Part shown: positions 10,673 to 60,871 of the stretch, piece by piece
Layout of the letters: each line of letters starts with the position of its first letter
Numbering within the stretch: position 1 is the first letter of the stretch
Source of the DNA: Clytia hemisphaerica
Taxonomy: Eukaryota > Cnidaria > Hydrozoa > Leptothecata > Clytiidae
Length of the DNA: 64,000 bases
Direction: 5' to 3'
Assembly (NCBI GenBank): GCA_902728285.1
Contig: CACVBU010000918.1
Coordinates: 267,086-331,085, forward strand
Notes under the pieces: generated by a model
The model's database searches: none
Told to the model about the DNA's origin: nothing
What the model saw: only the letters and a program-made list of their open reading frames with translations
Made by a program: the position numbers and the translations under genes

Positions 10673-10794
10673 AAAATCGGATTTTGAAATTAGTTATTAA
10701 CTTTTGATATATTTACTTTTTGATACTTTTTGAAGGCTTCTTTTTTCGTCTCAACGATCATCCAATTTGAGAAATCCGATGATGGACCATGACT

Positions 10795-11250
10795 TTGATG
10801 CTATTTGAATCAGCTCTCCTAAGAGGAAAGTAATTCGGCAGCAGTGGCTCGTCCGGTAGTGAATTGAGAAAATGGTCCAATTGATGTTTAAAATTAGTTT
10901 TGGAGCAGTTTTTGAGCTTACGGATGAATTGTGGGAGGGCGTTAAATAGTCTGGGACCTTCTTCTGACAGGGAGATATATATTTTTGAATGTTCTAGAGT
11001 TTTTTTAAGAGTGCTTGATAAATTAATAGAGCGTTGCTATATTAAAGAGTTGAAACTTAGATATTGTGTCAACTCTTTATTATATTTTTGAATGTTCTTC
11101 ATTTTTTCCAAAATTATAGTGCTCTGTATTATCTTTTCAACGGTATATAATGTGTTAGAATTGAAGCACCGGCTCTTTTTTGTTTCTCGATGTACATTTT
11201 TTGAATTCTGCCGGGAATGCTGCTATAGCTTATAGACGAGTCAGAGCCAG
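10795..11250 (-). mobile_element. Non-LTR retrotransposon ORF2 tail relic (LINE)
   Basis: On the minus strand one frame reads SEEGPRLFNALPQFIRKL, then FKHQLDHFLNSLPDEP, the typical end of LINE reverse-transcriptase proteins. An upstream frame near 11130-11220 reads EKQKRAGASILTHYT, also from that region, so frameshifts separate the parts. It lies 120 bases past the SIAE-1 stop. Inactive. Confidence 0.75.
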
Positions 11251-11939
11251 ATCCTTTGACTATTTTAGGACTGATACAGTAGAATCTCCATATCTTGAAC
11301 GGCCAAAGACAAATTTTCACGGGGGCAATGAATTTGTTCGATTTAAGGAGGTGGTACAGTGGACGATTAACTTGGCGTAAGATGGAGATAATCGTACTTG
11401 TTGAGTTAATCGATATAGTTCGAAGGGTTAAATATGTGGACACCTTTTGTTACAAATTCGCTTTTGATGAGCAACAATTTTTTATATTACAAAATAAAAG
11501 TACATATTTTCTATATATGCTAATAAAAAATTTCCTATCTAATCGTATAACTTTAAATGTAAAAACTGGATCGTATAGCTTTAAATGCAAAAACTGGATA
11601 ATATCAATATTTTAATCATTTGACCGTTACCAACCCTACGGTTCTTCTTTTATAAAATCCCTTTAGGCTCTGAAACACATCACATATATCAATTAACCAT
11701 TCCATTTTATATCCATACAAGGGGTAGGGGCGAATATTTCCAGGGGTTAACTTTGAGTTTTAAAAGTGATTTTAGTTGGGTTTTATGTAATGTTTCACAA
11801 TAAAGTCATAAAACCGACCTAAGACCCTAAAATTTTGCATAAGTACTCTTTATAAGATTATATTAAAAGTCAGAAAGTTTCAAATTGCTTAAAAAAATTT
11901 TCTCTGAGATATACATAAAAGAACTCCACTGTGGTAGAT

Positions 11940-12259
11940 GGGGGCAGTGGGTTTACCAACTGACGGTATGTGCGGCGAAAAAATTGGCTTTTAGAATCGC
12001 ACCCTTACAGTGCAGAAAAAAATCGGTGAAATTCATACCCTTACAGTGCATTTTTTCAAATTTTAAAACTCTTTTAGAGCAAAAAAAATCAAGATTTTCG
12101 AGCAAAAATTTGCAATTTTTCCCAGATTTGCTGAAATTTCCACCCTTACAGTGCATTTATCAAAAGTACACCCTTACAGTGCATTCCTGATGTTTTGAAA
12201 AACATACCCTTAACCGCCGCACATGCCCGTCGGTCAATTTGCCTGACTGCCCCCCCCCC
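11940..12259. mobile_element. G-run element with CCCTTACAGTGCA repeats
   Basis: Terminal GGGGGCAGTGGGTTTACC pairs with a C-run preceded by CAATTTGCCTGACTG. Subterminal CTGACGG..TGTGCGGC pairs with GCCGCACATGCCCGTCGG. Four internal ACCCTTACAGTGCA copies. The target duplication is not clear. Related to 31046-31500. Confidence 0.65.
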
Positions 12260-13209
12260 GGGGTTAATCGGAGAAAAATTTCCAAGGGGTATAATGTATA
12301 GTATCTTTCATTTTTCCTGGGTGTAAAAAATTATTCTAAAAGTTCCACTTTATTTCGTCCATCCTCACTTTTGAAGTATACATAATTTTTCCAAGGGTTG
12401 CTTTAGCAAATTTTTCCATTTCTAAAAATCTTTTTTTTGCATCCCCCTGTATGGAAATTCAATGGAACAAATGTTACAAATTTTCATTAAATTCTTGCAC
12501 CTAAGTAATAGCACAAGGAGTGTTTGCCTTTCAAAATCTTTGAAAAATTTTGATGAAGTCAGCTGAAATTTTGAAAAAAATCGATTTTGTGATATTTATG
12601 CTGACCTCATCAAAAACTTCAGAATACTCCTCGTGGTAATGTTTATCATACGTGAAAATTTTAGGTTGACTAGTTCTCGAGTTGAGATATCTATTTTTTT
12701 GGTTTTATGACGTCATCACAGATGGCCTGAAAAACAAGATTTTAGCCTAAATCTCAAAAGAGGCGAAATTTAAATCACAGCGTTTTTCACTTTCCGCATC
12801 GGAATACGCTTCTTTTGATGAATGACTCATATCAAATAATCAAATCATACAAAGAGGGGTAATAGGTGCGAAAGAACTATTGAAAATTTGAACATGCATT
12901 AATGCACCTGAAATAATGACGCACACAATACTATAGGAAATCTGTCTATCAATCAACGATGAACAGAATTTCAGAGGAATTCTGGGGAAAGAATGATATT
13001 TGAGATCTGCATGTGAAAGAGTTAGATAATCCGCTTTAAAGTTTTTTCAATGGCCAAAATCTCATTAAAGTGAATACCTTCACTTTGCTACCACAAAGAA
13101 GAGCTTTGTAAGACTGATGTATATTATAATATGCATCTTTTGAGGGAATGAAAACAATTTCCCAGAATGGGGGTCAGGTCTCCAAGGAACAGGAAAAATA
13201 TTTAGCTGG
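12260..13209. other. Intergenic sequence downstream of GT31-1
   Basis: AT-rich, no supportable gene. Contains a GACGTCATCACA stretch near 12710 also seen at 40017 inside another element, so part is repetitive. Confidence 0.5.
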
Positions 13210-14253
13210 TTATGATATAAGGCTTTGAGCAGTTAGTCTTTCCATACACCATTTTTTAATAACTCTATGTTGAGTAACCGATTGTCGTAGATAAAAGCAT
13301 TTTTTAGCCGAGCCTTTTCCATAAAATTCCTCATTCATGACTTTTATTTTCCGAATCCCCATACGGGGAACATCAGCCCTATTTACTAACATTCCTATGT
13401 AAACGTCATCTAATCGGAATGGGTTCACCCAGTCAAAGTGTGGACGCATTCTCTCAACAACTAAACGTGATAAAATATTTGCCATTCCAGTTGCAAAATA
13501 TGGGTATTCGTCAGCCGGCCATTCCTCTTTTGGCACATACCATTTTGAAAATAAGTCTCTGCTTGATCTACGCGTTGTTTGGTAAATAGATCCGGCAAAA
13601 ACACGATCCTTGTGTGCTAATATAAATGGGTCTTCATAAATGAGCTGGAAAAGATTCGGTATATTATAGAAAACATCATCATCGGTTTTGATAAGGTATT
13701 CAAAACTACAATGCTCCAGTGACCAAATAAATCCAAGCATCACTCTCCTGGATAGGTCCCAATAATCCTCAGTCCTATTACTAATCAACATATCCCTGTG
13801 AATTTTAGATTCAAGTTTAGCTGCTTTAAAAGCACCATCGAGGTAACCAGTCTGAAAATATACCTTGTAATTGACACCATTATATTTTAGACGATGTTTA
13901 GTAAACCGTGAAGCGTCACCCCAACTACTACGTATAGAATCTCTCCTGATTTGAAAACGGATATGCGATGTAACCAAAAACATAATGTCTCCATGGAAAG
14001 GATCGATATCGTCGTAATTCAAAAGCTTGATGTTTGGTGTATGGTTTTCAGGCATCACAAATGGGTGTTTTTTAGAACCTCTGAGCATGTTTTGTCCGAA
14101 ATTTTTCAAAGGTGATATGATTTTATTGTCCACGTCGATGAACAAATTCATATTGAAGCAAAGCAAGGATACCAGAATGAGACATGCGAATAAAACTTTA
14201 CGCCTTCGTCTTCGCCTATACATGTCCTTCCAAACACTGAAGTCATATACCAT
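13210..14253 (-). CDS. GT31 beta-1,3-glycosyltransferase GT31-1
   Basis: An intronless 347-residue type II Golgi enzyme. A short cytosolic tail with RRRRRRK (13-19) precedes one membrane span (about 20-39) and a stem; the catalytic domain starts near 85. Family marks: RRDSIRSSWG (103-112), TDDDVF with the metal-binding DDD at 191-193, the FATGMAN block (253-259) and LDDVYIGML (281-289), the GT31 E/D-D-V motif. It transfers galactose or GlcNAc from UDP-sugar in beta-1,3 linkage; the exact substrate cannot be told. The length suits B3GALT/B3GNT proteins. The start is the first ATG; an alternative is codon 11. The core is nearly identical in DNA and protein to GT31-2 in opposite orientation, while both ends differ. 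Confidence 0.92.
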   Translation of the reverse strand: MVYDFSVWKDMYRRRRRRKVLFACLILVSLLCFNMNLFIDVDNKIISPLKNFGQNMLRGSKKHPFVMPENHTPNIKLLNYDDIDPFHGDIMFLVTSHIRFQIRRDSIRSSWGDASRFTKHRLKYNGVNYKVYFQTGYLDGAFKAAKLESKIHRDMLISNRTEDYWDLSRRVMLGFIWSLEHCSFEYLIKTDDDVFYNIPNLFQLIYEDPFILAHKDRVFAGSIYQTTRRSSRDLFSKWYVPKEEWPADEYPYFATGMANILSRLVVERMRPHFDWVNPFRLDDVYIGMLVNRADVPRMGIRKIKVMNEEFYGKGSAKKCFYLRQSVTQHRVIKKWCMERLTAQSLIS

Positions 14254-16915
14254 ATACCAATGTTTTCATGAAAATTTCTCTTTTTCGATTTTACTCATAG
14301 CTTGACCCCAGCATGACCATGTGTGAGTAATTTCTCTTTTCTGTTTTTAAAAATTTCCTCTCGATAGCTCTTACCATTACAAACGTGTTTAAATATGAAT
14401 GTTGAATTTTTTCATCAATACATTATCAATCAAGTTAATACCTATCTGTAATTGCCATATCATTATAGTATTGTTCATCCTATTTCTTAATGAGTTGCTA
14501 AAAGTTGTATCTATGCCCCGCAGCTAAGTGCGCATTGAATGTATTTCCTTCTTAGAAGCAAGAACAGCTACACGTTTTTTATAAGGGCATCTAGATACAA
14601 GCCACCCTCGGATGTTCTTAACTTTAAGTTTTAAGCCTAAAAATGTTTTTAGAATGTTCTAACTTTCACCATTTCGTGAGTATTTTTCAGTTATTTCTAA
14701 GAAATTGGATGTTTTAGGGCTGTGAAAACTTAAAAAGCTCTCTACTTGTTTTTAGTATTTTGGCCATCTGTATGTTTTCAATTAATATGTTCTTATAAAA
14801 GAACATGTAATTTCAATTTTGATTCTGTTTAACCTGTGTAGAAATTAAATGTTTTTAAACCAGTGGTTAACTCCTTTTAAACTTTGGGCTAGTAAATAAA
14901 AAGCGCGAAGTTGAGTACAATAGATAGGTAAAAGAAACATGTACACTTAAAAACTTTAAATTTTGGTTAGAACACGGCTCGTCAACTGAACTTTATATAT
15001 CCATGGACAATCCATATCCATTTTAGGTTGGAGTTTTTTTTTTAAGTTGTACCTGCAAAGAAACTAAATTAAAGTTTAACGGTGCTACATCATCAAAAGT
15101 CAAAAGTATTCCAGAAAACGTAGATCTAGCGCTCTCGAAGCATTTACACCGCTATATTGAGTAGTACTATCATAAGGGTTTATCACTTTAAAAAAAACTT
15201 GCGGTGAGCGGCGCATCCGGACGCGGATATCTTATGAACTTTTTGTACATATTTATTTGGATTTTATAGTTGGTATCGTGTTTTAATATTGAGTACTTAT
15301 TATGAGCTAAATTCGTGTCCACTCTGTTGACTCTTGACCCAGAAACTACAAAGGGTACCAACCCGTCTCCTTACCTTCCAGCGGTAAGTAAGGCCGATAT
15401 CTGGGAAAAAACTTTTAAATATAGATTTTGTTGTCATTAGCTCAGGCATAGCCAGCCTCGGGCACCACGACAGTTTACTAGTTCTAGATGACTAAGTCTA
15501 GGCTAGATGTCGTGCTTTAAGCTCTTCCAAGCAAAAAACTGACTATCGCAAAAAAATTTTGCTGCTATTGTTTTCGAAAACCTGCAAAGCTTCTAATTGG
15601 TCAAGCGTTGAAATTCTATTGTAATGTAACGTTGACCACCTAGGTAGGATTTCCTACCTAACCACGGTACACTTTTCAGCCAAAGCACATCATCTAGCCC
15701 TTCGGTAGTCTCAGCGGGGCATTTTACGACTACAAAATTAGTTGCCACTAATTAGCCGTTACCATGACATATCTTAGGACATCTTCTTTGTTTGTTTTTC
15801 GTGTGGTGTCTAGGGTTTGACTATGCCAGCTCCGGAAAAAAACGAAGTAAAAAAGCCCACAATCTTGTTGTCAAAGACTTGCTTTATTGGAACGCAAAAT
15901 CACACTGTCCAGAAAAATGTTATATCGCATGCTAGGTTGAAATGCCTTCAGCTAGCCTTAAAGTGAAGGTGAATGAATAGTTGGATGTTTTTCTGCAGAA
16001 AATACTACACAGCCTTCGAATATTCTTTCCTTTTTTAGCTTAAGCCTAAGATGTTCTTAACAAGTTCTAATTTTCACCATTTGTGGGCATTTTTGTCCAT
16101 TTTCCTAACAAATCGGGTGTTACAGAGTCTGCAAAGCCTCAAAATGTTCTTAATTTGTTCTTAATATTTTGGCCATCGAAGCCTTGTGTGATTGTTGTTA
16201 TGATTGAATGTTAGTTACGTACTGAATGTTACAAGCGGCCGTTTCTTCCAAAATTAAACTTGAATTGACGAAGCGCTACGTCTTCAAGAGGTGACATATA
16301 TACAACATCAAAGGACAGAAACATGTGACGGGCGAAATACCCGTTGTTGGGTCAAAAATTATTTTTAGAATACATAGGTTTGCAGCTTATTGACACTTTA
16401 AAATCAGATTTTAGCCTGGAAGAAGTTTTTCTTTTTTGAAGCACCTCAAAATTCTATGGAGATTCTATTTTCATTCAAAGGTTTTAGCCCTCGCTCAGAC
16501 AAGTGCACAAAAATATACGGTTCGCTTTAGTCCTTAATACACTTTGTCTCACAGCCCAGATGGAACTTTTTCCCACAAACGGGGATAAATAATATCTACT
16601 GAAATTCCAACCAGGATGAAATTTCTATTGTGCCAAAGTTAAAAATCCAGCGGGATGGTTTTGAAGTGCAATATCTAAACATTTAATTTCGAATGGGGGA
16701 TGAAATTGAGTTAAGATGAAATTAAGTTAATTTTCCTACTGAGGCTAAAATTTTAGGGTATTTTTCCCACCGGGGATGAAATTTTTGCCAAATCTTCCAG
16801 TGGCCTGGGGTTGTTTTAATAAAATGTTGAAGACAGTATACCAGGCTGAACCCTGATCGGAAAGTAAATTTTCCTCCTGAAGAATTACCTTCTCCAAGTA
16901 ATAATATTCCATAAA
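14254..16915. other. Intergenic, transposon remnants
   Basis: No gene. About 14568-14830 and 16020-16200 share a diverged block (TAAGCCTAA..., CTAATTTTCACCATTT, ATTTTGGCCATC) of the TACACGTTTTT/ATAAGAAC repeat family. 16545-16800 resembles the ACACCCC-type element (CTCACAGCCC, GGGGATGAAATT). Confidence 0.5.
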
Positions 16916-16918
16916 CAT

Positions 16919-17016
16919 CCCAGCTAGCGCACAACGTTTTTTCAATGTTTATCTAACGTTCACAACATCCATGTAACGTTAGACGAACGTTGAAGCAATG
17001 TTATGTGCTAGCTGGG
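16919..17016. repeat. CCCAGCTGGC palindromic element, copy 1
   Basis: A 98-bp near-perfect palindrome: CCCAGCTAGCGCACAACGTT at the left, AACGTTgaagcaATGTTATGTGCTAGCTGGG at the right. Three more copies lie at 29489, 30903 and 38723. Confidence 0.85.
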
Positions 17017-17174
17017 TCAAGAGACTACACCTTTTTAAAATAAGAACCAATAAATTTTTTCTGAGGCTTGGTTGTTCTTTTTTTTGGCACTTTGAGCCTC
17101 TTATCCTGTTCTTATATATAGGGTGTAATTGAGGTATTTTAGATGTTATACCCAATTTTTCATCCTAGACCATA

Positions 17175-17520
17175 TGCTGTTCTCAGGAATTGAAGAGTGA
17201 CATGCAGAAGATAAGTGAGTGGGCTCATCAACGGAAAGTGTCCTTCAACCCTGATCCCTTTAAAGAGGCAGTTGAAGTGTTCTTTACCCAAAGGTTAAAT
17301 CCACCTGTTTTTACCCCTCAGAAATTACTTTTAATAATGCAGCCATCACAGTTCAGGATCATCAAAAACATCTTGTTCTCATACTTTGATGAAAAAATAA
17401 AAAAATATAATCAAATGTATTGGTCTTATTCGCAGATTTCGTATGTTTCTAACCAGGGTTTCTCTTGCCACTATATACAAAACCTATGTTAGACCACACC
17501 TAGATTATGGAGATAATCGT
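17175..17520 (+). mobile_element. LINE reverse-transcriptase relic, part 1
   Basis: One frame reads LKSDMQKISEWAHQRKVSFN, followed by PDPFKEAVEVFF. After a frame change another reads TIYKTYVRPHLDYGD (about 17470-17515). Both are hallmark late-RT/thumb sequences of non-LTR retrotransposons. Frameshifts make it inactive. Probably the same insertion as the tail pieces at 17700-17887 and 18893-19015. Confidence 0.8.
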
Positions 17521-17699
17521 ATATAGTGTATAAGTGAACAAAAAAGTAAAATCAACACAGTTTGTTTTTTACGATATTTCGTACTATTTTCAGAACTTCA
17601 TCAGGTATAGTATATAGTGTATATATAATCGTCCTGGCGATTTCACGCACGCTCTGAAAAAGTCGAGTCTGTTTAATATGATGCTTATCTTGTAATAAC

Positions 17700-17887
17700 T
17701 TGATGCTTCAGAGGAACATTAAAAGAAAATTTTACCTTGAGTTAGGCTTTGAAAGCCTATCAGACAGGTGGTTAACTAGAAGGCTTTGCTCCTACTTATC
17801 TTACGAATATTCTTCTTCCCCCGAGAGGAGAGGAAGAACGCAATGGAGGGCGAAGGATAAAACCACCACTCGAGGCATCTTTCTGTA
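17700..17887 (+). mobile_element. LINE relic, part 2 (5' of a nested insertion)
   Basis: Encodes FYLELGFESLSDRWLTRRLC, a motif common to the C-terminal part of LINE ORF2. It is broken off at 17887 by the insertion of the 17896-18884 element. Confidence 0.75.
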
Positions 17888-17895
17888 GAACCGAG

Positions 17896-18884
17896 TCCCT
17901 GGGGGGGGGGGGTACTAGGGTTGGCGAATGAGGGGTATGTGCAGACGGGACCTCCAAAAACCGACCCTTAGAGAGACTAATTTTTGCAGAAAAGGTGACC
18001 CTTAGAGAGACTCTAATTTTTTTTTTCGATTTTTGAAAACAGTCAAACCCTTACTTTAATGGGATAAATTTTCGCGGGGATTAAATTTCGCGGTTGAGCT
18101 CATCCGCGAAATTTTAAGATTTCGCGGGAATTAATTTTCGCGGATGAGGGATTTCCTGATTTTTCGCGGGGATTTAATTTCGCGGATTGGGGTACAAATT
18201 AAAATTTTTTAAAAGGGTCAAAACATTGAAATTAAATTTTTCCAGGAAAATTAAGAATTTTTTTTTCAAGTAATAAGAGGGTGTTTTGGAATAGGGCGAG
18301 GAGATATGTATTACAACTATCAAAAGTTGAATTTGAACTTCTATTGTGCGAAGCTAAATTTTCACAGCCAATTTGGGAAAAAATATTACATATCCTTTTT
18401 TGTGAAGAAAATTTTGAGGAAAACGATTTTTTGCTAACAAGCATATTGAGGATTGACCTTTCCCGAGGGTTGCCTCATGTAGAAAAAAAAATAAAGAACG
18501 ATAAAAATAGAAATTTCGCGGATTGCAAAAAAATTCTAATTTTTCGCGGAAACTAATTTTCGCGGATGGGCCTTTTTCAAATTTCCAATGGGACTTATTT
18601 TCGCGGATGACACCCAAATCCGCGAAATCCGCGAAAATTAATCCCCGCGAAAATTTATCCCATTAAAGTAGTAGATAGACTTTATTACAATTTTTTTTTT
18701 GATTTTTGAAAAAAGTCATACCCTTCGAGAGACTTAATTACAATTTTTTCTCTGGAAATCGAAAAATTTCCTAAAAATCCGGAATTTTGATTTTTTCGAC
18801 CCTTAGAGAGACTTTGAAAGATGAAAAAACCGACCCTTACCGTCCGCACATACCCATCATCCATTTTTGTACCCCCCCCCCCCG
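17896..18884. mobile_element. G-run element inserted in the LINE, perfect 8-bp duplication
   Basis: Flanked by GAACCGAG at 17888-17895 and 18885-18892. G-rich left end with GGTACTAGGGTTGG, C-rich right end. Internal repeats GACCCTTAGAGAGACT. It is itself interrupted by the 18054-18668 element. hAT-like by duplication length; no transposase. Confidence 0.85.
18054..18668. mobile_element. TA-target fold-back CTTTAATGGGATAAATTTTCGCGG
   Basis: Inverted termini of about 30 bp (CTTTAATGGGATAAATTTTC...) flanked by TA on each side (18052-18053, 18669-18670), as for Tc1/mariner-type elements. Subterminal TTCGCGGA repeats. It sits inside the 17896-18884 element. Confidence 0.85.
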
Positions 18885-18892
18885 GAACCGAG

Positions 18893-19015
18893 CGTTATCG
18901 TGCCTCTTTCTTTCTTTTTTGCATAAATAACCTCGGAGATCACGTACGGAATCTTCCCACAATTAAGTCTTTCAAGCAGACAATTCTCCGATTTCTCAGA
19001 CCCAGTTTTCAGAGC
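18893..19015 (+). mobile_element. LINE relic, part 3 (3' of the nested insertion)
   Basis: TERYRASFFLFCINNLGDHV then SFKQTILRFLRP continues the LINE tail across the nested insertion. Removing one copy of GAACCGAG together with the insert restores the (R)TERYRASFF reading. Confidence 0.78.
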
Positions 19016-19384
19016 TACACGTTTTTTCTTTTATTAGAACCCAGTTTATAAGAACATTGTGGCTGAAATTCGTCGAAAAATTAAGAACATCGTAAGAACA
19101 TGCCCAGCCTCAGTTTGGAAAAAAATGACAAGAAACTACAATTTTTTCCTCTTTTCAAGCAGTTTTAAACAAACTTAGGAATGGATTTTCTAAATCGAGG
19201 GTCAAATATTGTCCAAATTTTACCAATTTTAAGTGCCCTTTATTTTGCATGATATTGTCGATTTAGAGTAGTCTGAAAATTTAAGAACGCATCTAAGAAC
19301 ATTTCAGGCTGAAAATTGCTAAAAAAAATAAGCACATCCAGGCTCAGCCAAATTTTAGGTGTTCTAATAAAAAAAAAACGTGTA
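19016..19384. mobile_element. TACACGTTTTTT element, complete copy (369 bp)
   Basis: Ends are TACACGTTTTTTC...TTAGAAC and GTTCTAAT...ACGTGTA. Internal TTAAGAACAT repeats. Inserted immediately after the LINE relic. Related copies at 39767-40589 and 50663-51034. Confidence 0.7.
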
Positions 19385-20270
19385 GTGACAACGATGGCGT
19401 TGTTCTTCTTAACCGATTGAGGATTGGTTGCAGTAATCTTCATAAGCTCAGGCATAATTTTGCAGACACAGTTGACCCTTTCTGCAACTGTCGACCAAAT
19501 TCAGTGGAAACAATTCTTCACAGTATTTTTTTGGTGCACTGCACTGATTACTCTAACGACAGACTTGTGATGTTTGGACAGCCTTCTTCAACTTGACATA
19601 ACCTTTTTTCTATTTAATCCCAGAATATTGTGTAGAATACTTCTTTATGGCGACCCCAATTTTAGTATTGTCCAAAATCACAATATATGATATACTCATT
19701 GGCTAAATAACTTATTTTTTAATTATAAATTACATTTATTTATTAAATAAATTATTCTTAATTGTTTTTCTCCGAATCCCGTATTGGAAATCCATTAATT
19801 ATTGATTAGTGATAAAAATAATGTTACTTATTTATCCGATTTTCAATTGTTTGACATAGTTTATGATGTTTGACTGATTGACTAAATAAACTTAAAATGA
19901 ATACTTCCCGTCCCCAAGATGATTTTCTTGTTTTAATTCCAAGTGTTGTTTATAGCTTGTCATTTTTAAATGTTTACGATTGGATATTGTTTACAGGGAT
20001 ACATAATCGCACGATGATTTATTTTTTCTTATTTGGCGCCCCTTCAAAGAGAGCAATTAAATCGTTAATTACATCCTGTAGAGAACAATTAATCATTAAT
20101 CACACTCTTCGATGCAACGCCAATGTTTACAAAATTGATTTTGATGTTTTTTCTTACATTTATTTCATCGAACGTTTTAATTGCATTCGAAATTCAACAA
20201 TGAAAGAAAAACATAGAGAGAAGAGAAAAATACAAAACATTCAGTGTAATTTACTTCCCTAATGGGGCAA
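19385..20270. other. Intergenic stretch without a supported gene
   Basis: AT-rich. A 121-codon frame at 19897-20262 has a real ATG but no recognisable domain; see rejected items. Confidence 0.45.
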
Positions 20271-20286
20271 AAGTAGTGAAACAAGC

Positions 20287-20470
20287 TGTGCGATTAGCTT
20301 GTAATCACATGATAACTCGTAAAATTCGAAAATTACACTCGTGATTTTTTTGTTTCGAATTTTCCTCGTCCTTTCAGACTCAGAAAATTAATAACAAAAA
20401 AACACTCGTGCAATTATATTCGAATTGCACTCGTTATCATGTGATTACATATACTAATCGTCAGCCGTGC
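20287..20470. repeat. Inverted repeat with TAATCACATGATAAC arms
   Basis: TGTAATCACATGATAAC.. at about 20299 pairs with GTTATCATGTGATTACA at about 20434. The arms are about 58 nt. Confidence 0.7.
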
Positions 20471-20862
20471 AAAATTACTCGAACCTGATTGGTTTAGAGG
20501 AGTGCGATTAATCGTTAATTGCACTATTACCACTTTTTGCACTCTTCGGCGGGGGGACACTTTTGTCCCCTTATTCTTTTCTCTCCCAAGTCCCAGTCAG
20601 AGACTTTTTTTACTATATAATAAAAAACAAAGACAATTTTTTTTCTTCAATATAAAAAAGGACAAAGAAATTTTACGTTACAATAGCTTCTTTTAATTGA
20701 AAACAAAGAAATTACACTGCAATGTTTTCTTTTTAAACAAAAGAAAAAAAGGAGGTTTTCGAATGTTTACAAAAAGAAACTATGATTTTCTAATGATTAT
20801 TTACTGACGATTACCTCGGAATCGTATGTTTTGTCGTGTAATTAACGATTAATCACGAGTAA

Positions 20863-20938
20863 CAAAGGAGAAAATAGTAATTTGCGCGAGTCCGAAGGAC
20901 GAGTGTAAATTACGGTATTTTCTCCTTTGTTACGAGAT
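20863..20938. repeat. Short hairpin AACAAAGGAGAAAATA
   Basis: GAGTAACAAAGGAGAAAATA pairs with TATTTTCTCCTTTGTTAC around a GCGCGAGTCCGAAGGACGAG core. Confidence 0.7.
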
Positions 20939-21024
20939 TACTAGTACTAATGTTTATAGCAAACTCCCCCTGACGACATAATTAAGGTTTTTTGCTAATA
21001 ACTTTTGTGTGTTTGAAATATCAA

Positions 21025-21236
21025 TGTATATTGTGGGAGGGGGGAGTATTTGGTATATTTCATCTCGGGACCTTGAGAACTTCGGGGCCTAGGCGGTACA
21101 TGTATATTGTAGGGGTATTTGGCATAGTATCATATCGGGACCTTGGAACCTTTTTGACCTAGGGGTAACATGTATATTGTGGGGGTATTTCATATATTCT
21201 CATCTCAGGACCTTGGGACCTTCCCTATTGTAGAGG
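21025..21236. repeat. Three-copy tandem repeat of 70-76 bp
   Basis: Units start TGTATATTGT at 21025, 21101 and 21171 and share GGGGTATTT and CGGGACCTTG blocks. Confidence 0.85.
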
Positions 21237-21973
21237 GAATAGTGTTTCTATATCTTACATTACATTTCCTATTTTTGCCAAACCAAAGTCTTTAGTTTAA
21301 AATTAATTTTGGGGTGAGCAAGTAAATGCTTTCTGCTTTTCTGTAAAATTCAGAAGCTTAGACCCCACACTGACCCGTAATTTCAGGCTCAGGTTTGTTC
21401 TTAAATTATTCTTATTTTTTTGGCGATTTTGAGCCTCATTGTTTTAGGGCCAACTATTCCTGAATCTGAAAATTAAAAAATTGCCTTGAAAAATTTTATG
21501 AAGAAGAGAATGAAGACATTTGCAAAGACAAGTATTTTAACCTTGAGGACCTTGTTTTCGGCGAAAAAATAAAATATTTTGAAAAAAATTTTGCACTAGA
21601 TATTGTATTGTACAGACATCTTTAACCAAACTAAAAATAGTTTTTTGAAAGATTTTTGTAAAACAAAGACAAAGAATTGCCTCAAAATCGCTTTTGTAAA
21701 AAAATTTCACCCACCATGGTTGGGCGTCGATTTTTTTTTTCATTTTCGGGGATACCTTCAGTTGGGAAATATTTTATCCCCAAAATTATTTGTATAGGAG
21801 TGTTTAGCCAATAAACAAATATGCCAAAACTTAATACACTGGTTTTCCTTATCGTTCACCCACTTCTGGGCTATCCGTTCTGCTCACAGCACCCTTTCCA
21901 GCAGTAAACAAATAGAAAGTTAAAACGAGAAAATTTAAGAATATCATTCTAAACGAAAAGATAAAAAAGTCTA

Positions 21974-23196
21974 CAGTATATGGCCCCCAAAACGGAGACG
22001 GCCCCCAAAACGGAGGTCGTCATTAAAATGAAGATTCTGACTTGTAGATTTATCAGAATTAAACAATTTTTGTTTATTTTGAAAGAATGATGGTTATACT
22101 TAAAAATGAGCATGTCTTTGCTGGTTTGAGACAGATTCAAAATAACATATTTGCGTCTAAAGGAAATATTTTAACACCAAAATTAGATAAAAATTGCATA
22201 TAACTCACTCTAGCTCCTTGGATATTGAAAATAAGTTATGAAAAGGTAAGGAAACTTTCTACACCTAAGCCGTTCAGAAATCAAATACATCTGTGACTTT
22301 AGAGGCTGGGTAAAAGATATAGCATCTTGAAGGTCAACCAGTATTTTGGAGCCCTAGAATCAGCATTGATAAAATTCTAAATATGAGAAAAAGCAAAAAA
22401 TCTTGGAATTCTAGTCCTATCACCTTGAGTTAATAGTTTATAACAAAAAATTAAAATTACATATAAAATTTTTCGCTGAATCAGCAAAAACGGCAATTCT
22501 GTATTTTTTTTCAAAATATAGGAAAATATTTAAAGCTTAATATTTTCAGTTTCAGTTAACTTTTTTTCTAAAATTTTTCACAGCTTATTCCATACATGAA
22601 TGGAACTATTTTCAGAAGAATTTGTTTTCAAAAATTGATTAAGACGTTGGTTAAATCAAATTGTCATTTTGAAAATTTCTAAATTTCCGTTTGGACTTTG
22701 CAATACGAAAATTGATATTTCATAAAATCATAAATTTTACATCCATCGGGTCGTAAATTTAAGAGAAAACACAAATTTCATAGTTTTTCCCCTATTACCA
22801 CTGGGTATATTTGATTTAATACAACCGTTTTGGGGGCCCCAAACCTGCATTTTGACAACCAGGGTATACTTGTAAAATTTTTATCAAATAAATTTATGCC
22901 CAAAACCCTCTAATCATATTTCAAAAACTATGTTAAAATTTTGTATTCATATCTTAAAGATTATTCGAGAAATCGCTAAATTCAACCTCCGTTTTTGGGG
23001 GGCCATTAGAAAAAAGCTACCTATCTTTATGCGATTGAAAAATATTGTTGAAATTGAAAATTTTGAAAAAGAAGTTCCAGGAAATAAAGTAGAGATGTTA
23101 AAGGTTTTCATGCAGCAAAAATTTTTGTAAAATCTCTTTTCCTCTAGATTTGAGAGAAATTTCAAATTTGATCGCCGTTTTGGGGGCCACATACTG
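21974..23196. mobile_element. Tc1/mariner-like non-autonomous element (1.2 kb)
   Basis: Begins CAGTATATGGCCCCCAAAAC and ends GTTTTGGGGGCCACATACTG, with TA directly outside each end (21972-21973, 23197-23198). Extra GGCCCCCAAAACGG motifs lie subterminally. No transposase frame. Confidence 0.82.
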
Positions 23197-23724
23197 TAGG
23201 TTGATTCGAGATTTTATATAGAGATTCTTATAAAAGGAGATATTGTATTTTTTACTTCAGATTACAGTGTGTGCATCTTGCAATTCCTGCATCAATAACA
23301 CGAATGCGTAATTTGGCGTTATTTTAAACCACATGTAGTTAATTCCCGTGATAAACAAAGAGAAATTAATCACTAGTGGTGTTACAGGCACTTTCGGTCG
23401 GGGTTGTGGATGGCAAAATATGAAATTTGTCGCTCTTTTTTGCCGTTTTTTATGAAATTTGTCGTTCTTTTTATCTATGTTTAGTAATGCAGGAATTGTA
23501 AGATAGAGCTTCTCTTATAATCTCATAAACGATATATCCATAAAGATCATGTATAATAATTTACATACCCTTTTTTAAATCTTTTACTTTTTCACAGTGT
23601 GGAAATTTCATCAATGAAAAATATCATGCCAGGACAAAAATACACTTAATGAAAATACGCATCCTATTAAGGCGTGTTGTATGATGATATGGCATTGGAA
23701 ATTCGTAGAGTGTAAAGTGTGATT

Positions 23725-24735
23725 AAAGTCTGTCCAGATATAATTGGCAGTGGAAACAAAAATGTCTCTAACTTTTGATAGTCAAATATAATTATAGACA
23801 TTTTTTTGGCTTGTTTTAGAGAATGAAAAGCGCTATATTTGAATGTATTTTTGGTTGAAAAATTCGCAATTTTTAGCGGTTAAATTTGCGATTGCAAAAA
23901 TTGAGCTTTTTTTCTACTTATACTATAACGTTCATTTTTACACCAGTGGTGGTTCAACCTTAGGTTAAGAAGTTTGACAAATTTCAAGGCAAACAGAAAA
24001 GTCCTTCGGAAGTATTGGGACCCGAAATACCCCTTGGTAGCACTTTTCTGTGAAATATCAAATCTCTAACTTATTACTATAAACGGGGGTTATGTTATCT
24101 TTTTTGAACAGTGCAATTAAAAGTTGGAAAATGTTAAGTGTTGGTGCATTAGTATTATTGGTATCATTGATTATTTCGAAACGAAGTGAAATCACAGTAT
24201 AATTGTTTTTATTGAAAAGATAAGCATGAACTTATATTACCTTTTTGTTATTTTTAAGTCATTAAAGAACTTTGCTAATTCCCAAAACACTAAACACAGT
24301 TTGGCTATGAGGTCAAAGAGATCGTAAAATGTGTTATGATCGAAAAACTGTTTTATCAATCATATCACTACCCCCGTTTTTAGTAATAAGTTGGAGATTT
24401 GATATTTCACAGAAAAGTGCTACCAAGGGGTATTTCGGGTCCCAATACTTCCGAAGGACTTTTTTGTTTGCCTTGAAATTTAACAAACTTCCTAACCTAA
24501 GGTTGAACCACCACTGGTGTAAAAATGAACGTTATAGCATAAGTAGAAAAAAAGCTCAATTTTTGCAATCGCAAATTTAACCGCTAAAAATTGCGAATTT
24601 TTCAACCAAAAATACATTCAAATATAGCGCTTTTCATTCTCTAAAACAAGCAAAAAAAAATTCTATAATTATATTTGACTATCAAAAGTTAGAGACATTC
24701 TTGTTTCCACTGCCAATTATATCTGGACAGACTTT
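23725..24735. mobile_element. Fold-back element with AAAGTCTGTCCA ends
   Basis: Arms 23725-24095 and 24372-24735 are near-perfect reverse complements (AAAGTCTGTCCAGATATAAT at the tip), with a loop of about 280 bp. It ends 260 bases before the GT31-2 start codon. It shares its tip with the larger element at 41138-43993 and a fragment at 62580. Confidence 0.9.
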
Positions 24736-24994
24736 TTTTTTAGTATCCGTCTAGACAATTTCTAGATAATGTCAGAAAGTCACATCGATACATTATCATA
24801 AGCATCAGTGATTTACGATAAGTCAGCACGATTAACTTGTATTTGAACAAAGACATATGATTTGAATTTAGAGATTTTATGAGTAGCTGGAAATTTACAA
24901 CCGTATAAAAATTGCAGATCATCACATGAGAAAAATCAAGAAGTATCAAAATTTAAAAATACATAGGTGATCGTTGTATGACGTTCCGAGAGGT

Positions 24995-26017
24995 ATGTTG
25001 TTACGAAGACGAAGGCGTAAAGTTTTATTGATATATGCTGGCTGTTTCATTTTGGTTATCTTAGTTTTTCTGAAAACAGACTCAATCCTTAACATAATTG
25101 AAAAGAAAATTATATCTTGCGAGAATTTCCGTCAAAATATACATCGAGATTATAAACTAGTACAATTGGTAATTCCTGAGAACAACACACCGAATATCAA
25201 GCTTTTAAATTACGACGATATCGATCCTTTCCATGGAGACATTATGTTTTTGGTTACATCGCATATCCGTTTTCAAATCAGGAGAGATTCTATACGTAGT
25301 AGTTGGGGTGACGCTTCACGGTTTACTAAACATCGTCTAAAATACAATGGTGTCAATTACAAGGTATATTTTCAGACTGGTTACCTCGATGGTGCTTTTA
25401 AAGCAGCTAAACTTGAATCTAAAATTCACAGGGATATGTTGATTAGTAATAGAACTGAGGATTATTGGGACCTATCCAGGAGAGTGATGCTTGGATTTAT
25501 TTGGTCACTGGGGCATTGTAGTTTTGAATACCTTATTAAAACCGATGATGATGTTTTCTATAATATACCGAATCTTTTCCAGCTCATTTATGAAGATCCG
25601 TTTATATTAGCACACAAGGATCGTGTTTTTGCCGGATCTATTTACCAAATAACGCGTAGATCAAGCAGAGACTTATTTTCAAAATGGTATGTGCCAAAAG
25701 AGGAATGGCCGGCTGACGAATACCCATATTTTGCAACTGGAATGGCAAATATTTTATCTCGTTTAGTTGTTGAGAGAATGCGTCCACACTTTGACTGGGT
25801 GAACCCATTCCGATTAGATGACGTTTACATAGGAATGTTAGTAAATCGGGCTAATGTTCCCCGTATGGGGATTCGAAAAATAAAAGTCATGAATGAGGAA
25901 TTTTATGGAAGGGGTTCGGCTAAAAAATGCTTTTATCTCAAACACTCAATAACTCAACATCAAGTGACTAAAGGCTGGTGTATGGAAGGACTTACAGCAA
26001 AAAGTGTAATAACATAG
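24995..26017 (+). CDS. GT31 beta-1,3-glycosyltransferase GT31-2
   Basis: Intronless, 340 residues from the first ATG at 24995; the open frame extends 21 bases upstream only through a TTG. An RRRRRK tail precedes a membrane span (about residues 9-27). The catalytic motifs are RRDSIRSSWG, TDDDVF (DDD 184-186), FATGMAN and LDDVYIGML, as in GT31-1, with only four residue differences across about 240 core residues. The stem before PNIKLLNYDD and the last 25 residues differ. Type II Golgi enzyme; acceptor unknown. It lies just after a fold-back element, which could influence its promoter. Confidence 0.92.
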   Translation: MLLRRRRRKVLLIYAGCFILVILVFLKTDSILNIIEKKIISCENFRQNIHRDYKLVQLVIPENNTPNIKLLNYDDIDPFHGDIMFLVTSHIRFQIRRDSIRSSWGDASRFTKHRLKYNGVNYKVYFQTGYLDGAFKAAKLESKIHRDMLISNRTEDYWDLSRRVMLGFIWSLGHCSFEYLIKTDDDVFYNIPNLFQLIYEDPFILAHKDRVFAGSIYQITRRSSRDLFSKWYVPKEEWPADEYPYFATGMANILSRLVVERMRPHFDWVNPFRLDDVYIGMLVNRANVPRMGIRKIKVMNEEFYGRGSAKKCFYLKHSITQHQVTKGWCMEGLTAKSVIT

Positions 26018-26049: not shown

Positions 26050-26140
26050 AAATTACACCCCTGTAGCACAGACCCGGTGGGAACCTCGCCCCAACTATAC
26101 TGAAAATTTGGACCAAAATTTCGTCCCTAATTGAACTAGT
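26050..26140. repeat. ACACCCC-type element, left-end fragment
   Basis: TTACACCCCTGTAGCACAGA and CCGGTGGGAACC match the left end of the copies at 35851 and 38295. Confidence 0.6.
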
Positions 26141-26556
26141 CATAGCTTTCACTAAATGCCCACGCAGAAGATCATGTCATGCACTTATAAAGCTTTTAAT
26201 GCTTTAAAGATTAAAGCATTAAAAATAATCAGGAATAATTGATTGATTTAATTATTGAATGATTGATTAATTGATTGAGGCATATGCTTGAAAAAAAAAT
26301 TATATTCCATTAACACAATACTTGAAGAATTCATGCAGCTTGATAATTTGATAAAATTTAAGGAAAAGCTTCTCAAAAATTTATTTCAAAAATTATGGTA
26401 TCATTACTTTACTGGTTTTCAGATCTCCTGTTTGTTTTTTTCTCCCAGTTTCTTTCTTACAACAATATATTATGTCATGATTATTATTCACAATAGACCT
26501 TTTCTGATAATGCCGCAGACATCTTAGATTGTAGGCAAAATATATAGCGGTGAATA

Positions 26557-26736
26557 GACCTTTTTTTAACAAGAGGCAGCCATTTTGAATAATTATGTAC
26601 TCCAGCATAAAAACAATCATACAGCCATGCATAATTTTTAAAATATGCATAATACAGTAATTATGCATGGCTGTGTCACTGTTTTTATGCTGGAGTACAT
26701 AATTATTCAACATGGCTGCCTCTTTAAAAAAAGGTC
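26557..26736. mobile_element. Palindromic TA element (180 bp)
   Basis: GACCTTTTTTTAACAAGAGG...TATGTACTCCAGCATAAAAAC pairs along its full length with the right half. TA flanks both ends (26555-26556, 26737-26738). Confidence 0.88.
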
Positions 26737-26814
26737 TATAAATCAACAAGGCAACCAATCAGAAATAGCTTGCTTTTTTCATTGGCTGCTATATTTCAAC
26801 AATTCTCTATTGCT

Positions 26815-26966
26815 CAGGGCCGGCGAAACTGGGGGGGGGGGGGGGCCGGGGGGCATGGCCCCCTACTTTTTTGCTAAGAAAGGCCCGTCGGCGCCAACCA
26901 TGGTGGCGCCTCCTTAGACACTTACTATTTGGCACCTCCACTTTCATAATTGATTCGCCGGCCCTG
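26815..26966. mobile_element. CAGGGCCGGCGAA short inverted-repeat element
   Basis: Termini CAGGGCCGGCGAA and TTCGCCGGCCCTG are perfect inverted repeats around a long G run. CAGGG ends suggest a hAT-type element, but no clean 8-bp duplication is seen. Confidence 0.78.
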
Positions 26967-28569
26967 TATGCTACTTTGCCTAATAAACAATAGTCAAGAA
27001 AATACTACGTATAAAATTTATCAAAAAGTTCTGCGCCATCTTAAATTGGGTGAAATAGAAACCAATCCTAGTTAAGGCCCGGGCTCCTCTTGTGTACGCT
27101 GTGATTGCACTTCTCAAGCAAAATCTTCTATGTTGTTGGTCAAAAGAAAAATAAAGGAATGCCATTGTGGTCTATTCAGACTTACAGTCGAGAAAAGTTG
27201 AAATGCGCTTTAATTTTTTTTCAAATGCATAGTACTTTTTCATGATGTGATGCAATCTTTTCTCCAAGCTGAAAGGATCGAAGCCATTAAGATGATCGCA
27301 GCGCAGACAATGAAGAGACGTGCCTCCAGGAAGCTAGACTTTTTGAGTTTATAGCTATATACTTTCACTTTATTCTATTGTGTTTCCGTATGACTGTCTG
27401 TGTATCTAGTCTAACCACCGTTAAATGCCTTCGGGAAGGTCCCTCCTAACTTGGAAAGCCAGAATTGGAGCTATTTCACCAAACCACTGGAGCATAGGTT
27501 ATTTAGAAAAAGTTGAATATGCGCATGTAAAGTTAAACGAATGTTAAAACAGTGAATACACTCTAAGCACTAAGTGAGGTAAATCCAAAAGAAATTCAAC
27601 ATTCAACATTCATTCAACCACTTTTGGATTCAACTTTACATATGGCCATATGCATACATTCAACATTTTTGAACTTTGCCGGTATCTTGTTTTACTAAGT
27701 TAAGAAGGACTTTCTCGAGTTACGACCATATTATGGTATTTAAAGCTCAAGAAGCTCTATAAACAATAAAGCTAGTTATTAATATAATAACAGACAGTTT
27801 ACAGTTTGAACAAAAAATATCAAATATCAAATGTACGTACATTAAAAAACTTGAGCAAATTTCTTTAAAGATTCCAGAAAAAGAATTGAAATCATTGCTG
27901 AAATGAACTTCTGACTAAATTACAGTATTTAGTATTCAGTTTCAAAGACAAGAAACAAAACTTGACATACAAAACACTTTTTCCAGTCAATGAATCAGCT
28001 CATCATCATAACCAGTCTGCCATTTTGTTTGTTTTGATTTGCACAAGTAATATTGTAATTCGTGTTATATCATACACTGTTATAAATAATTTGCATTTAT
28101 AACACTCGCTTCAGCTTTTCAAAGCTAAATCAAAACTAATAAATTGTAATACGTAATAATGGTAATAGCATATAACGTAATATGAAAATACGCATACTAC
28201 TAAAAACCGAACATTTACGGAAGAGACTAACTACGGGGATGCTTGCGCGACAAAACAAAAAAACAACAAAATTTCGAGATTCCAGTCCAATATCTATGCG
28301 TGAAACTATGAGTGCCTCCTCGTCGCTGCGCTCCTGCGGGGGCAAAAATATACCCTTTAATTTCAGCCCCATTAAAAAATTGACTTTATTTTCATCCCCA
28401 TTAAAAATGTGGCGAAAAAAATATCCCCACTGTGGGAACGCTGCTTGATTACTTTTAAGGAACTTTTTATAATTTTTTTTATATCTAATAAATAGAATTT
28501 ATTATGAAAGATAATTTTTAAAGAATTTAGTTAATTTTAAAATACTCGATCAAGAGATTGTTTATTGTA
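26967..28569. other. Intergenic, nothing recognised
   Basis: No supportable gene. A block near 28345-28435 (TTTCAGCCCCATTAAAAA, TATCCCCACTG) is a degraded ACACCCC-type fragment. Confidence 0.5.
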
Positions 28570-29401
28570 CCGGGTGCGCCACAAAAAAGTTTCTCTCTTT
28601 GAAACTGATTTGCTTGAAATATAAAATTTTTAAAAGAACCTTGCCTATTCCATTGGAAAGAAGAAATATAAACTTAAATTTTGATGGGTCATTTATCTAA
28701 TTCAGTTCTTTAGATCAAAAGTTATGCTCAATTGAATAAAAAAGTTACTTTCAGAAAGTGCCCGAAAACGTTACAAATCGACCTATCAAATTTTTATTTT
28801 AAATTTGGCAATCGCAATAGCCTTTATACGATCAAGAGCATTTTTCAGTAATTAAACACTTAAATTTTGAAACTGATGGGTCGAAAGGGTTTTAAATCTT
28901 CATCAAAATCATTTTAATTTACTTTTTACCCAAATTTTTCACAGATTTTTGGTTCTAGACTGGATAAAGTCTATGTAAGGCTGGATGTACCTCGAAACCC
29001 ATATTTGATGTATTTTTATGAATTTTACCAAATTTTTTTGGCTTTTTTCGACGAATTTTCTTCCTTTTAATGTAATTCAACCTTCCTTTATACAACAAAA
29101 GGTCATTTAGACAGCTAATTATCATTTTTGATGGCTGAAGCAAAAAAACTGGTGCATCGTGTAATTATGCTTCTGTTTAATTTGATAGGTCAATTTTTAA
29201 CGTTTTTAAGCACTTTCAGAAAGTAACTTTTTTATTCAATTGAGCATAACTTTCGATCTAATGTACCGAATTCATTAAATGACCCATCAAAATTTAAGTC
29301 TATCCTTCTTCGTTCCAATGGAGTAGGAATGGTTCTTTTAAAATTTTTACATTTCGAGAAAATTAGTTTTAAAGAGAGAAACTTTTTTGTGGCGCACCCG
29401 G
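28570..29401. mobile_element. Fold-back CCGGGTGCGCCAC with TA duplication
   Basis: The tip CCGGGTGCGCCACAAAAAAG pairs with the right end. The arms extend about 215 nt (they include TTACTTTCAGAAAGTGC and AATTTTGATGGGTCATTTA). TA flanks both ends (28568-28569, 29402-29403). The loop is about 400 bp. Confidence 0.9.
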
Positions 29402-29488
29402 TATATCTGTTTATATGGAGATGACATGAGAATCATGAGAATCTCATTTCTGAAAAGAAAACTGTTTTCTTCTGGTTGTAAGTCTCTT

Positions 29489-29582
29489 CCCAGTTGACAG
29501 ACAACGTTCTATCAACCTTTAATGTTCCCAACGTCCATATAACGTTAGACGAACGTTGAAACAACATTGTGTGCCAGCTGGG
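29489..29582. repeat. CCCAGCTGGC palindromic element, copy 2
   Basis: CCCAGTTGACAGACAACGTT ... AACATTGTGTGCCAGCTGGG. Confidence 0.85.
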
Positions 29583-30005
29583 TTAGTGTTACTTATCACG
29601 ATCTTCATTCTTCTTAAATCAACGAGTTAACTTTCTAATTATACATCAATTCTTAAGGATCATGAAGTAGACATCAAAGAATGACAAGACGAAGTAAGCC
29701 CACAAAGTCTAGATATAAGCATTTTGTGTTAATTTGTTTTGCAAACAGATTGATTAAATTAATTTATATAAATTAAATCAATAATACTCGTGGGTTATTT
29801 CGTGGAGAATTGGAGAATTCTTTCTTGGATTTTAACCGATTCAGAGGAATAAAGAAAAATCTAAAATGACGCATGTTTCGTAACTTGAGCTTTCAGATTT
29901 AACCTATAGAAATTTACACCTTCGGTCGTTTTGAAGTATAAACCGAGATATAAACAACTTTTTATTTATGCAAGTCATATAATAACAAATCATCGTTCGA
30001 TGCAA

Positions 30006-30177: not shown

Positions 30178-30193
30178 TTTGCGATGCAACTAA
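30173..30193 (+). promoter_or_regulatory. Upstream ORF overlapping the SIAE-2 start
   Basis: ATG at 30173 opens a six-codon frame stopping at TAA 30191-30193, past the SIAE-2 ATG at 30184 and in another frame. The first 86-bp unit carries a matching ATGG, so the duplication added upstream ATGs. Confidence 0.4.
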
Positions 30194-59842: not shown

Positions 59843-60871
59843 ATGCAGATCATGATACCAATATTGAATAAATTGCCAAAAGTGAGACGTATTTCCCAAA
59901 AGAAGGTCGCTGTAATGGTTGTTCTGTTTTTTGGTTTCGTTTGGATGGCCACCAACTTTGAAATTACTATCCGGAGAAGTAAAGTACCAATTACAATACA
60001 AACAACAACAATAACACTAACAACAAAACGAAAAATTCCACAATTAAACCCAAAAGCAAATATTAAGTTGTTGAATGCTGAGGATATTGAAAGATTTACT
60101 GGCAACATATTAGTTTTGACGACGTCTGGAATTCAGAATCAAAATAAAAGAGATTCGATTCGAACAACGTGGGGGAACTCAACCAAATTTATTGAATATC
60201 GTAAAAAATACAATCATATCACATACAAAGTTTACTTTAACACTGGTTTTCGTAGTGACACTATCAAAGCAGCTAAACTGGAATCATCAAATTTTAAAGA
60301 TATGTTGATTACAAATCGAACTGAAGGTTATTGGGACCTATCTAGAAGAGTTATGCTTGGTTTTTTATGGTCATTGGAGTATTGTTCTTATGATTACCTC
60401 TTGAAGGGAGATGATGATGTCTTTACTAATATACCAAATTTATTTCAAATCATTTATACAGACCCTTTCGTATTAGAGCATAAAGATCGAATCTATGCTG
60501 GATTAATTTATCCAAAGACTCTCCCTAACCGTAATCGGAGATCTAAGTGGTATATTTCTAAGAAGGAATACGCGCCAGACACGTATCCACCATTCGCAAC
60601 AGGTTTAGGTTTCATATTAACCAGATTGATCGTTGAAAGAATTCGTCCACACTTTGACTGGGTGAACCCATTTCGGATGGATGATGTTTACGTTGGAATG
60701 TTAATAAATCGAGCAAATATAACTGGACTAGGGATTCGTTATACAAAAGATGAAAAACAATTTTCAGGATTTAATTCACCTAAGCAATGTAAATATCAAA
60801 AAAATGCAGTTGTTTATCATAAAGTTGGTTCTCACTCGTGTATGAAAAGTTTAACAGATAAGAGTATCTGA
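59843..60871 (+). CDS. GT31 beta-1,3-glycosyltransferase GT31-3
   Basis: Intronless, 342 residues from ATG 59843 (the longer frame opens with GTG). Basic tail, membrane span about residues 22-38, then a Thr-rich stem (TIQTTTITLTT, likely O-glycosylated). The catalytic domain has KRDSIRTTWG, GDDDVF (DDD 190-192), FATGLGF and MDDVYVGML. It is clearly related to GT31-1 and GT31-2 but diverged, with a matching domain plan. A 29-bp stretch encoding RPHFDWVNPF is identical in DNA to the other two copies although neighbouring codons differ. Golgi enzyme, acceptor unknown. The promoter region abuts an inverted-repeat arm, and a tandem array follows the gene. Confidence 0.92.
   Translation: MQIMIPILNKLPKVRRISQKKVAVMVVLFFGFVWMATNFEITIRRSKVPITIQTTTITLTTKRKIPQLNPKANIKLLNAEDIERFTGNILVLTTSGIQNQNKRDSIRTTWGNSTKFIEYRKKYNHITYKVYFNTGFRSDTIKAAKLESSNFKDMLITNRTEGYWDLSRRVMLGFLWSLEYCSYDYLLKGDDDVFTNIPNLFQIIYTDPFVLEHKDRIYAGLIYPKTLPNRNRRSKWYISKKEYAPDTYPPFATGLGFILTRLIVERIRPHFDWVNPFRMDDVYVGMLINRANITGLGIRYTKDEKQFSGFNSPKQCKYQKNAVVYHKVGSHSCMKSLTDKSI

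Follow-up and report, generated by a model that had tools for sequence, protein, structure and literature searches.

Probable gene conversion confined to the catalytic core of two inverted GT31 glycosyltransferase genes in Clytia hemisphaerica

Paralogous blood-group glycosyltransferases such as FUT2/SEC1, which belong to glycosyltransferase (GT) families and hosts other than those described here, exchange sequence. For the amylase paralogues of Drosophila, the excerpted account describes concerted evolution restricted to the coding sequence, with the flanks evolving apart (PMC3924832). In Caenorhabditis, inverted adjacent paralogues, including the hsp16 modules and the hsp70 pair, undergo conversion, and the sections of the review drawn upon give the relative conversion rate for inverted pairs as not determined; a study cited in those sections reported that conversion declines over 1–8 kb and suggested that the same orientation is likelier (PMC3966223). 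At the Daphnia magna resistance locus, a repeat-rich glycosyltransferase cluster, the authors suggest recurrent gene conversion in the excerpt used here (PMC5340410). Our literature search returned no title describing conversion between animal GT31 genes; a trypanosomatid paper contains both terms (PMC5853035).

Here we analysed a 64,000-nt stretch of the C. hemisphaerica genome (the window), in which two genes, A and B, lie inverted and head to head (Table 1). Both ORFs had been claimed in an earlier reading made from the letters alone (the sequence-only reading), and their positions were confirmed. The Pfam PF01762 Galactosyl_T profile scored 107.7 bits for A and 103.8 bits for B against a curated cut-off of 23, and the catalytic domain of both proteins was similar to chain 8zwp_A (Beta-1,3-galactosyltransferase 5; E 2.7e-19 for A and 8.4e-20 for B), with the acidic DDD of B aligned to the DSD of this chain. 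These similarities place A and B as paralogues in the GT31 galactosyltransferase family. In the translated ORFs of both, a hydrophobic stretch comes after an Arg run, and the start codon of A may be Met11 at 14223, as judged by alignment to B. Searches of viral and prokaryotic collections, made with peptide patterns from one protein, confirmed no relative.

Similar to the Drosophila amylase genes, A and B appear homogenised in their coding sequence with diverging flanks; unlike the amylase case, in which the excerpt confines concerted evolution to the coding sequence, the A/B tract stops within the ORF and both ORF ends appear old (PMC3924832). The opposing orientation resembles that of the Caenorhabditis hsp16 and hsp70 genes, where head-to-head or tail-to-tail placement permits conversion. 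However, the Caenorhabditis pairs in the excerpted sections are adjacent, with hsp16 modules 416 bp apart, whereas A and B are 10.7 kb apart, and an inverted pair at this distance runs against the distance and orientation trend cited there (PMC3966223). The Daphnia magna locus likewise carries glycosyltransferase copies with suggested conversion, but its genes are those of fucosyl- and alpha-1,4-glycosyltransferases and are present or absent depending on the haplotype, and the excerpt contains no comparable internal tract (PMC5340410).

Table 1. Coordinates of the GT31 genes and of the predicted tract and ends of A and B (positions in the window)
Feature	Position	Strand	Remarks
Gene A, predicted GT31	13210..14253	-	single ORF, 347 aa; Pfam Galactosyl_T E 8.2e-31
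Gene B, predicted GT31	24995..26017	+	single ORF, 340 aa; Pfam Galactosyl_T E 1.3e-29
Gene C, third predicted GT31 gene in the window	59843..60871	+	outgroup and rate control
Probable conversion tract in A	13289..14031	-	743 bp; change-point and silent-only change-point
Probable conversion tract in B	25196..25938	+	743 bp; 15 differences from A; change-point and silent-only change-point
Apparently old 5' end of A	14032..14253	-	Arg run, hydrophobic stretch, stem; compared with B over 64 codons
Apparently old 5' end of B	24995..25195	+	divergence from A
Apparently old 3' end of A	13210..13288	-	last 25 codons and stop; divergence from B
Apparently old 3' end of B	25939..26017	+	divergence from A
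Exact match at Arg-codon run, A	14189..14214	-	26 bp; reached in 2/5000 shuffles
Exact match at Arg-codon run, B	25004..25029	+	26 bp; reached in 2/5000 shuffles

A two-rate change-point model delimited a tract in which A and B were 98.0% identical, while 94 of 268 aligned positions differed outside it (lnL gain 98.7). On a coarser grid the gain was 97.4, against a maximum of 11.6 among 300 column shuffles, and a change-point restricted to silent codons gained 21.1, a value that none of 2000 shuffles reached. The borders were as sharp as the sequence-only reading had described them, with the start at 14031–14018 and the end at 13319–13289 within 2 lnL units (A coordinates). Over the 248 core codons we counted 12 silent and 4 replacement changes (dS 0.084, dN 0.007), which bore out the proposed near-identical core with about four residue differences; silent divergence was low, as proposed, but stayed above zero. 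Because the A/B differences were scattered through the tract, a GENECONV-like test of the longest zero-mismatch run, performed alongside the change-point tests that tolerate later mutations, was not significant for A/B (884/10000 shuffles). A zero-mismatch run is a criterion of some detection programs and is dispensable once a tract has mutated.

The ends of the two genes behaved differently from the core. Silent divergence between A and B reached dS 1.24 over 64 codons at the 5' end (dN 0.39) and 1.13 over 25 codons at the 3' end (dN 0.25), rough values for such short stretches, and the dS comparison along the gene that had been set as a test thus came out as predicted, 0.084 in the core versus more than 1 in both ends. 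The strong difference previously noted in the presumed membrane span and stem (dN 0.39) was upheld; the last 25 residues were diverged, as also noted, yet clearly homologous, with 15 of 25 identical. A tree of the ends of 21 sequences placed A and B as sisters with support of 0.914. A neighbouring pair of SASA (esterase) genes in the same window showed dS of 1.19 and 1.31, which suggests that the A/B ends are about as old silently as the SASA pair, in a rough comparison near saturation. By these silent-site values the A/B pair appears old and only its core young. The Arg-codon run, singled out earlier as the exception within the diverged 5' end, was a genuine one, exact over 26 bp, and is a possible second micro-tract. 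Beyond the ORFs, the 300 bp upstream of A and B showed marginal likeness (score matched in 9/500 shuffles), and the 300 bp downstream showed none (437/500).

We consider it highly probable (about 0.92) that interlocus gene conversion between old A and B duplicates overwrote the catalytic core, as the homologous, old ends and the young core argue. Recombination between the inverted copies was offered before as an alternative, but crossover alone would not homogenise the core. In the proposed course of events, a single-ORF GT31 gene duplicated long ago to give A and B, now head to head; a broken copy would later have been repaired from the other one, the simplest route being synthesis-dependent repair that involved no crossover, with ~743 bp of catalytic-domain sequence copied, presumably in a single event. 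The exchange would have ended where A and B were too unlike to pair, leaving the ends with their old divergence, and the copied core would since have gained new point mutations. The single assembly of the B locus, the shortness of the ends and the distance and orientation trend cited for Caenorhabditis were counted against this account, as were the non-significant zero-mismatch run, the lack of a GC3 rise and the marginal or missing likeness of the adjoining 300-bp stretches. GC-biased conversion was rejected, as GC3 of the core (0.32–0.34) showed no rise and thus no mark of it. Taken with the core value, GC3 of 0.47 in the 5' end of A and 0.33 in that of B would hint at B as donor, but the value of 0.19 in the 3' end of A deprives this hint of weight.

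The same genome contains a 99% copy of A on another contig (C743:254751-255794), hereafter A2, with the window gene as A1. This contig was collinear with the window both before and beyond A (blocks from 746 to 16585), indicating no inversion through A between these two; it probably represents the other haplotype and A2 the second allele. A1 and A2 differed at 9 tract positions, and a three-way count over the 743 bp assigned 4 private differences to A1, 5 to A2 and 11 to B, with no three-way site among the 20 variable ones. These counts give the tract an age of at most about twice that of the A alleles, and the conversion would accordingly be no older than about twice the split between A1 and A2. 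The 11 differences private to B further indicated that the B core is a copy of neither A sequence. At 4 tract sites A2 agrees with B; continuing exchange was considered as the cause and rejected, since the three-way count resolves these sites into A1-private changes. A tree of the core placed B beside A2, a weak placement with support of 0.186.

Conversion may also have been recurrent, a sub-form of the interlocus reading and compatible with it, in which repeatedly homogenised cores alone stayed similar enough to pair and the tract sums several events. We regard this as possible but doubtful. It is favoured by a second inverted cluster, where the tail-to-tail genes G and E on contig C313 share a core patch that is weaker and older than the A/B tract (20 of 132 silent codons differ inside the patch and 47 of 104 outside), and by the Arg-run match, which could be a separate small event. 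Against it, the 15 tract differences showed no detectable unevenness (KS p 0.16), a result that fits the pattern left by one event, and all 20 variable tract sites were private, although a comparison of three sequences tests the point weakly. In a family-wide silent change-point scan (210 pairs of 21 sequences), A/B was the strongest outlier, with gains of 22.0 for B–A2 and 21.1 for B–A1 compared with 13.0 for the next best pair.

The B locus was present on one contig only, which would suit an assembly artefact in which A-haplotype reads were built into the B core. A second B allele was found in the assembly neither by gene DNA or protein nor with the neighbouring stretches 19000–22500 (40 of 6265 candidates scored) and 26100–30000 (40 of 5727 scored), and the assembly searches found neither A nor B in a form from before the conversion. 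However, a pasted core should match A1, A2 or a mosaic of them rather than carry 11 differences of its own, and the B ORF is open across both borders, making such an artefact very improbable. About equally improbable is a chimera, in which the whole gene duplicated recently and its ends were afterwards swapped for those of other family members. A young core would follow from recent duplication, and this is a large family, with 56 matches to the B protein in the assembly. Yet the ends of A1 and B are mutual closest relatives, with dN of 0.38 (5') and 0.18 (3') between them, compared with at least 0.87 and at least 0.54, respectively, between A1, A2 or B and the paralogues C, D, E, F and G; their sister position in the flank tree points the same way, and the scheme requires two replacements from near relatives that did not turn up in this assembly. 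Preservation of the core by silent-site selection or a low mutation rate, for which its conserved protein might speak, has a probability close to nil: against C, silent divergence over these core sites approaches saturation (dS 2.55 for A and 2.16 for B), and between D, E, F or G and A1, A2 or B it ranges from 1.41 to saturated, so that the core mutates normally and is no slow region.

The probable conversion between A and B is ordinary in kind and illustrates a familiar process cleanly. As a speculative and rather unlikely extension, the single-ORF GT31 family might consist of genes with interchangeable catalytic cores, in which conversion between inverted or nearby copies repeatedly resets the core while the targeting ends diversify; A/B would then be the young case, G/E the older one, and members of the cluster on contig C666 perhaps further older cases. 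As dS in the core of this pair is less than a tenth of that in its ends, trees or dates based on catalytic domains can mislead badly in such families. The predicted products of A and B would be enzymes whose catalytic domains are almost alike and whose membrane anchors, stems and tails differ. Because their catalytic domains are nearly equalised, A and B offer a tractable pair for testing the role of the glycosyltransferase N-terminal anchor and stem.

Alignment of the DNA of the GT31 paralogues A and B, which lie in divergent orientation with a 10,741-bp spacer, returned a single 828-bp block at 95.4% identity and a 26-bp exact match close to the gene start. Change-point analysis reduced the block to a 743-bp tract (A 14031-13289, B 25196-25938) carrying 15 differences (98.0% identity); outside this tract, 94 of 268 aligned positions differed. 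Codon-wise Nei-Gojobori estimates with Jukes-Cantor correction, obtained with our own script, gave dS 0.084 and dN 0.007 for the core (248 codons), compared with dS 1.24 and dN 0.39 for the 5′ part (64 codons) and dS 1.13 and dN 0.25 for the last 25 codons. Codons for the same residue were spelled differently at 9 of 217 positions in the core and at 19 of 54 outside it (Fisher p 4.8e-9), and a change-point restricted to silent sites had a gain of 21.1, the maximum among 2000 shuffles being 11.7. A test for runs of zero mismatches between A and B did not reach significance (884 of 10000 shuffles). Three of the 15 tract differences were clustered within 5 bp by the 3′ border, suggesting that the true end of the tract may be at ~13317. 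On this sequence evidence, we regard as certain the conversion that the sequence-only reading had proposed for the A and B cores.

Features in the window
Feature	Position	Strand	Description
First SASA-domain gene	336-10672	+	several exons
Gene A	13210-14253	-	single ORF, 347 aa; Pfam Galactosyl_T
Fold-back element	23725-24735		366-bp arms, 97% alike; terminates ~260 bp upstream of B
Gene B	24995-26017	+	single ORF, 340 aa; Pfam Galactosyl_T
2.2-kb repeat	~26134-28348		onset ~110-120 bp past the stop of B
Inverted-repeat element	28568-29404		arms 88% alike
Second SASA-domain gene	30184-39100	+	several exons
Inverted repeat, ~920 bp	51064-51968 and 58816-59734		95% alike; stops ~110 bp upstream of gene C
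Gene C	start 59843		third Galactosyl_T member

The window is C635:267086-331085 of a 417-Mb assembly, and a search of the whole assembly with A recovered a 99% copy, A2, on another contig, C743. The terminal 33.6 kb of that contig match the window as a series of blocks that starts at 746 and stops at 16585, where C743 runs out. Over 11 blocks, excluding the A gene and a GAGT array, 297 of 11406 positions differed (2.6%); the array itself (5275-5939, ~166 copies) could be aligned to C743 only with gaps. We read C743 as the other haplotype of the A locus from these alignments, and it may instead represent a recent segmental duplication. C743 ran parallel to the window on both flanks of A, and therefore no inversion passes through A between the two. 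Queries with the DNA of A, the DNA of B and the B protein recovered no second B copy in the genome, and no second copy of the whole of 19000-22500 or 26100-30000 was found either (40 candidates scored for each).

Within the tract, the window's copy A1 differed from A2 at 9 positions (5 silent), and the two differed from B at 15 and 16 (10 and 9 silent). Private differences numbered 4 in A1, 5 in A2 and 11 in B, with no three-way sites, so the A and B cores are scarcely more different than A1 and A2; the event would accordingly date to at most about twice the age of the A1/A2 split. The 11 private differences of B against both A1 and A2 also count against an assembly artefact in which A reads were pasted into the core of B.

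In a tree of the ends (21 sequences), A and B grouped together with support 0.914 on long branches, which disfavours a chimera with foreign ends. The core tree of the same size joined A1, A2 and B in one clade (support 1.000) of near-zero branch length; B stood next to A2 with support 0.186, leaving the order within the clade unresolved. Together, the trees identify A and B as sisters with a reset core. Neither silent constraint nor a mutational cold spot accounts for the A/B core, since its dS was near saturation against C (2.55 for A, 2.16 for B) and ranged from 1.41 up to saturated for A1, A2 or B against D, E, F and G, further GT31 members of the genome.

Two exons of the SASA-domain (sialic-acid esterase-like) gene pair gave dS 1.19 (138 codons) and 1.31 (123 codons), about the values of the A/B ends, in a rough comparison of values near saturation. 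A 40-codon stretch of this pair at 0.29, flanked by one saturated and one 0.79 stretch, may be another, older conversion patch. An ORF with PAN and Fibrinogen_C domains (3070-4044) sits inside the first SASA gene, with matched exons of that gene on either side. The PAN plus Fibrinogen_C, Galactosyl_T and SASA domains of the window are suggestive of an animal source.

The A/B pattern fits crossover-free repair from a paralogue, in which one copy would be repaired from the other and copying would halt where similarity runs out. A Caenorhabditis review describes conversion in both direct and opposing orientation, so the inverted arrangement of A and B is no obstacle; it also cites a study suggesting that copies of like orientation convert more readily and that conversion declines over 1-8 kb (PMC3966223). 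A Drosophila review describes concerted evolution confined to coding sequence and an inverse relation to distance (PMC3924832).

Repeat-rich DNA borders B, so that lost homology outside the genes is expected and little informative. The 2.2-kb repeat matches at least 20 further loci in the genome over 1 kb or more (88-98% identity); its segment 26815-26968, with a long G run, is absent from the other matches listed. The element at 28568-29404 has at least 13 other near-full copies (94-98%), and 21972-22500 is a portion of a high-copy repeat with at least 38 other places at ~94-95%. The termini of the fold-back element (AAAGTCTGTCCA...) resemble those of inverted repeats at 41137-43994 and 53406-55227, and the three are possibly a single transposon family.

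B protein matched the genome at 56 places. Loci were cut for 30 of these and 21 sequences were used, A2 among them; the nine left out comprised two with stops, the two halves of a match that had been split, and five remote or incomplete loci. The top silent change-point gains among the 210 pairs were B/A2 (22.0), B/A1 (21.1), G/E (13.0) and C666_721k/803k (12.3), and none of these four gains was reached in the 100 shuffles run for each of the 24 leading pairs. The same held for three further pairs on contig C666 (10.4, 10.2 and 9.8) and the far-apart pair C63/C666_771k (9.2); since far-apart pairs reached up to 9.6, a gain of ~10 is unsafe evidence at 210 pairs. G/D (10.9) was reached by 2 of 100 shuffles, and by 0 of 300 under a different alignment. 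G and E, inverted and tail to tail on contig C313, showed silent differences in 20 of 132 codons within the low segment and 47 of 104 outside, making conversion likely there as well. The C666_721k/803k pair, in the same orientation and with a short low segment (0 of 48 silent differences), is unlike A/B. Two other copies, L034 and L035 (G000:C79, 125k and 26k), which share an orientation and are separated by ~99 kb, differ at only 3 of 327 silent codons and would reflect either very recent duplication or assembly duplication.

By sequence comparison, the solved structure closest to A and B is beta-1,3-galactosyltransferase 5. The functional consequence that follows as a prediction from gene anatomy is that A and B would carry a near-equal catalytic domain under unlike anchors and stems.
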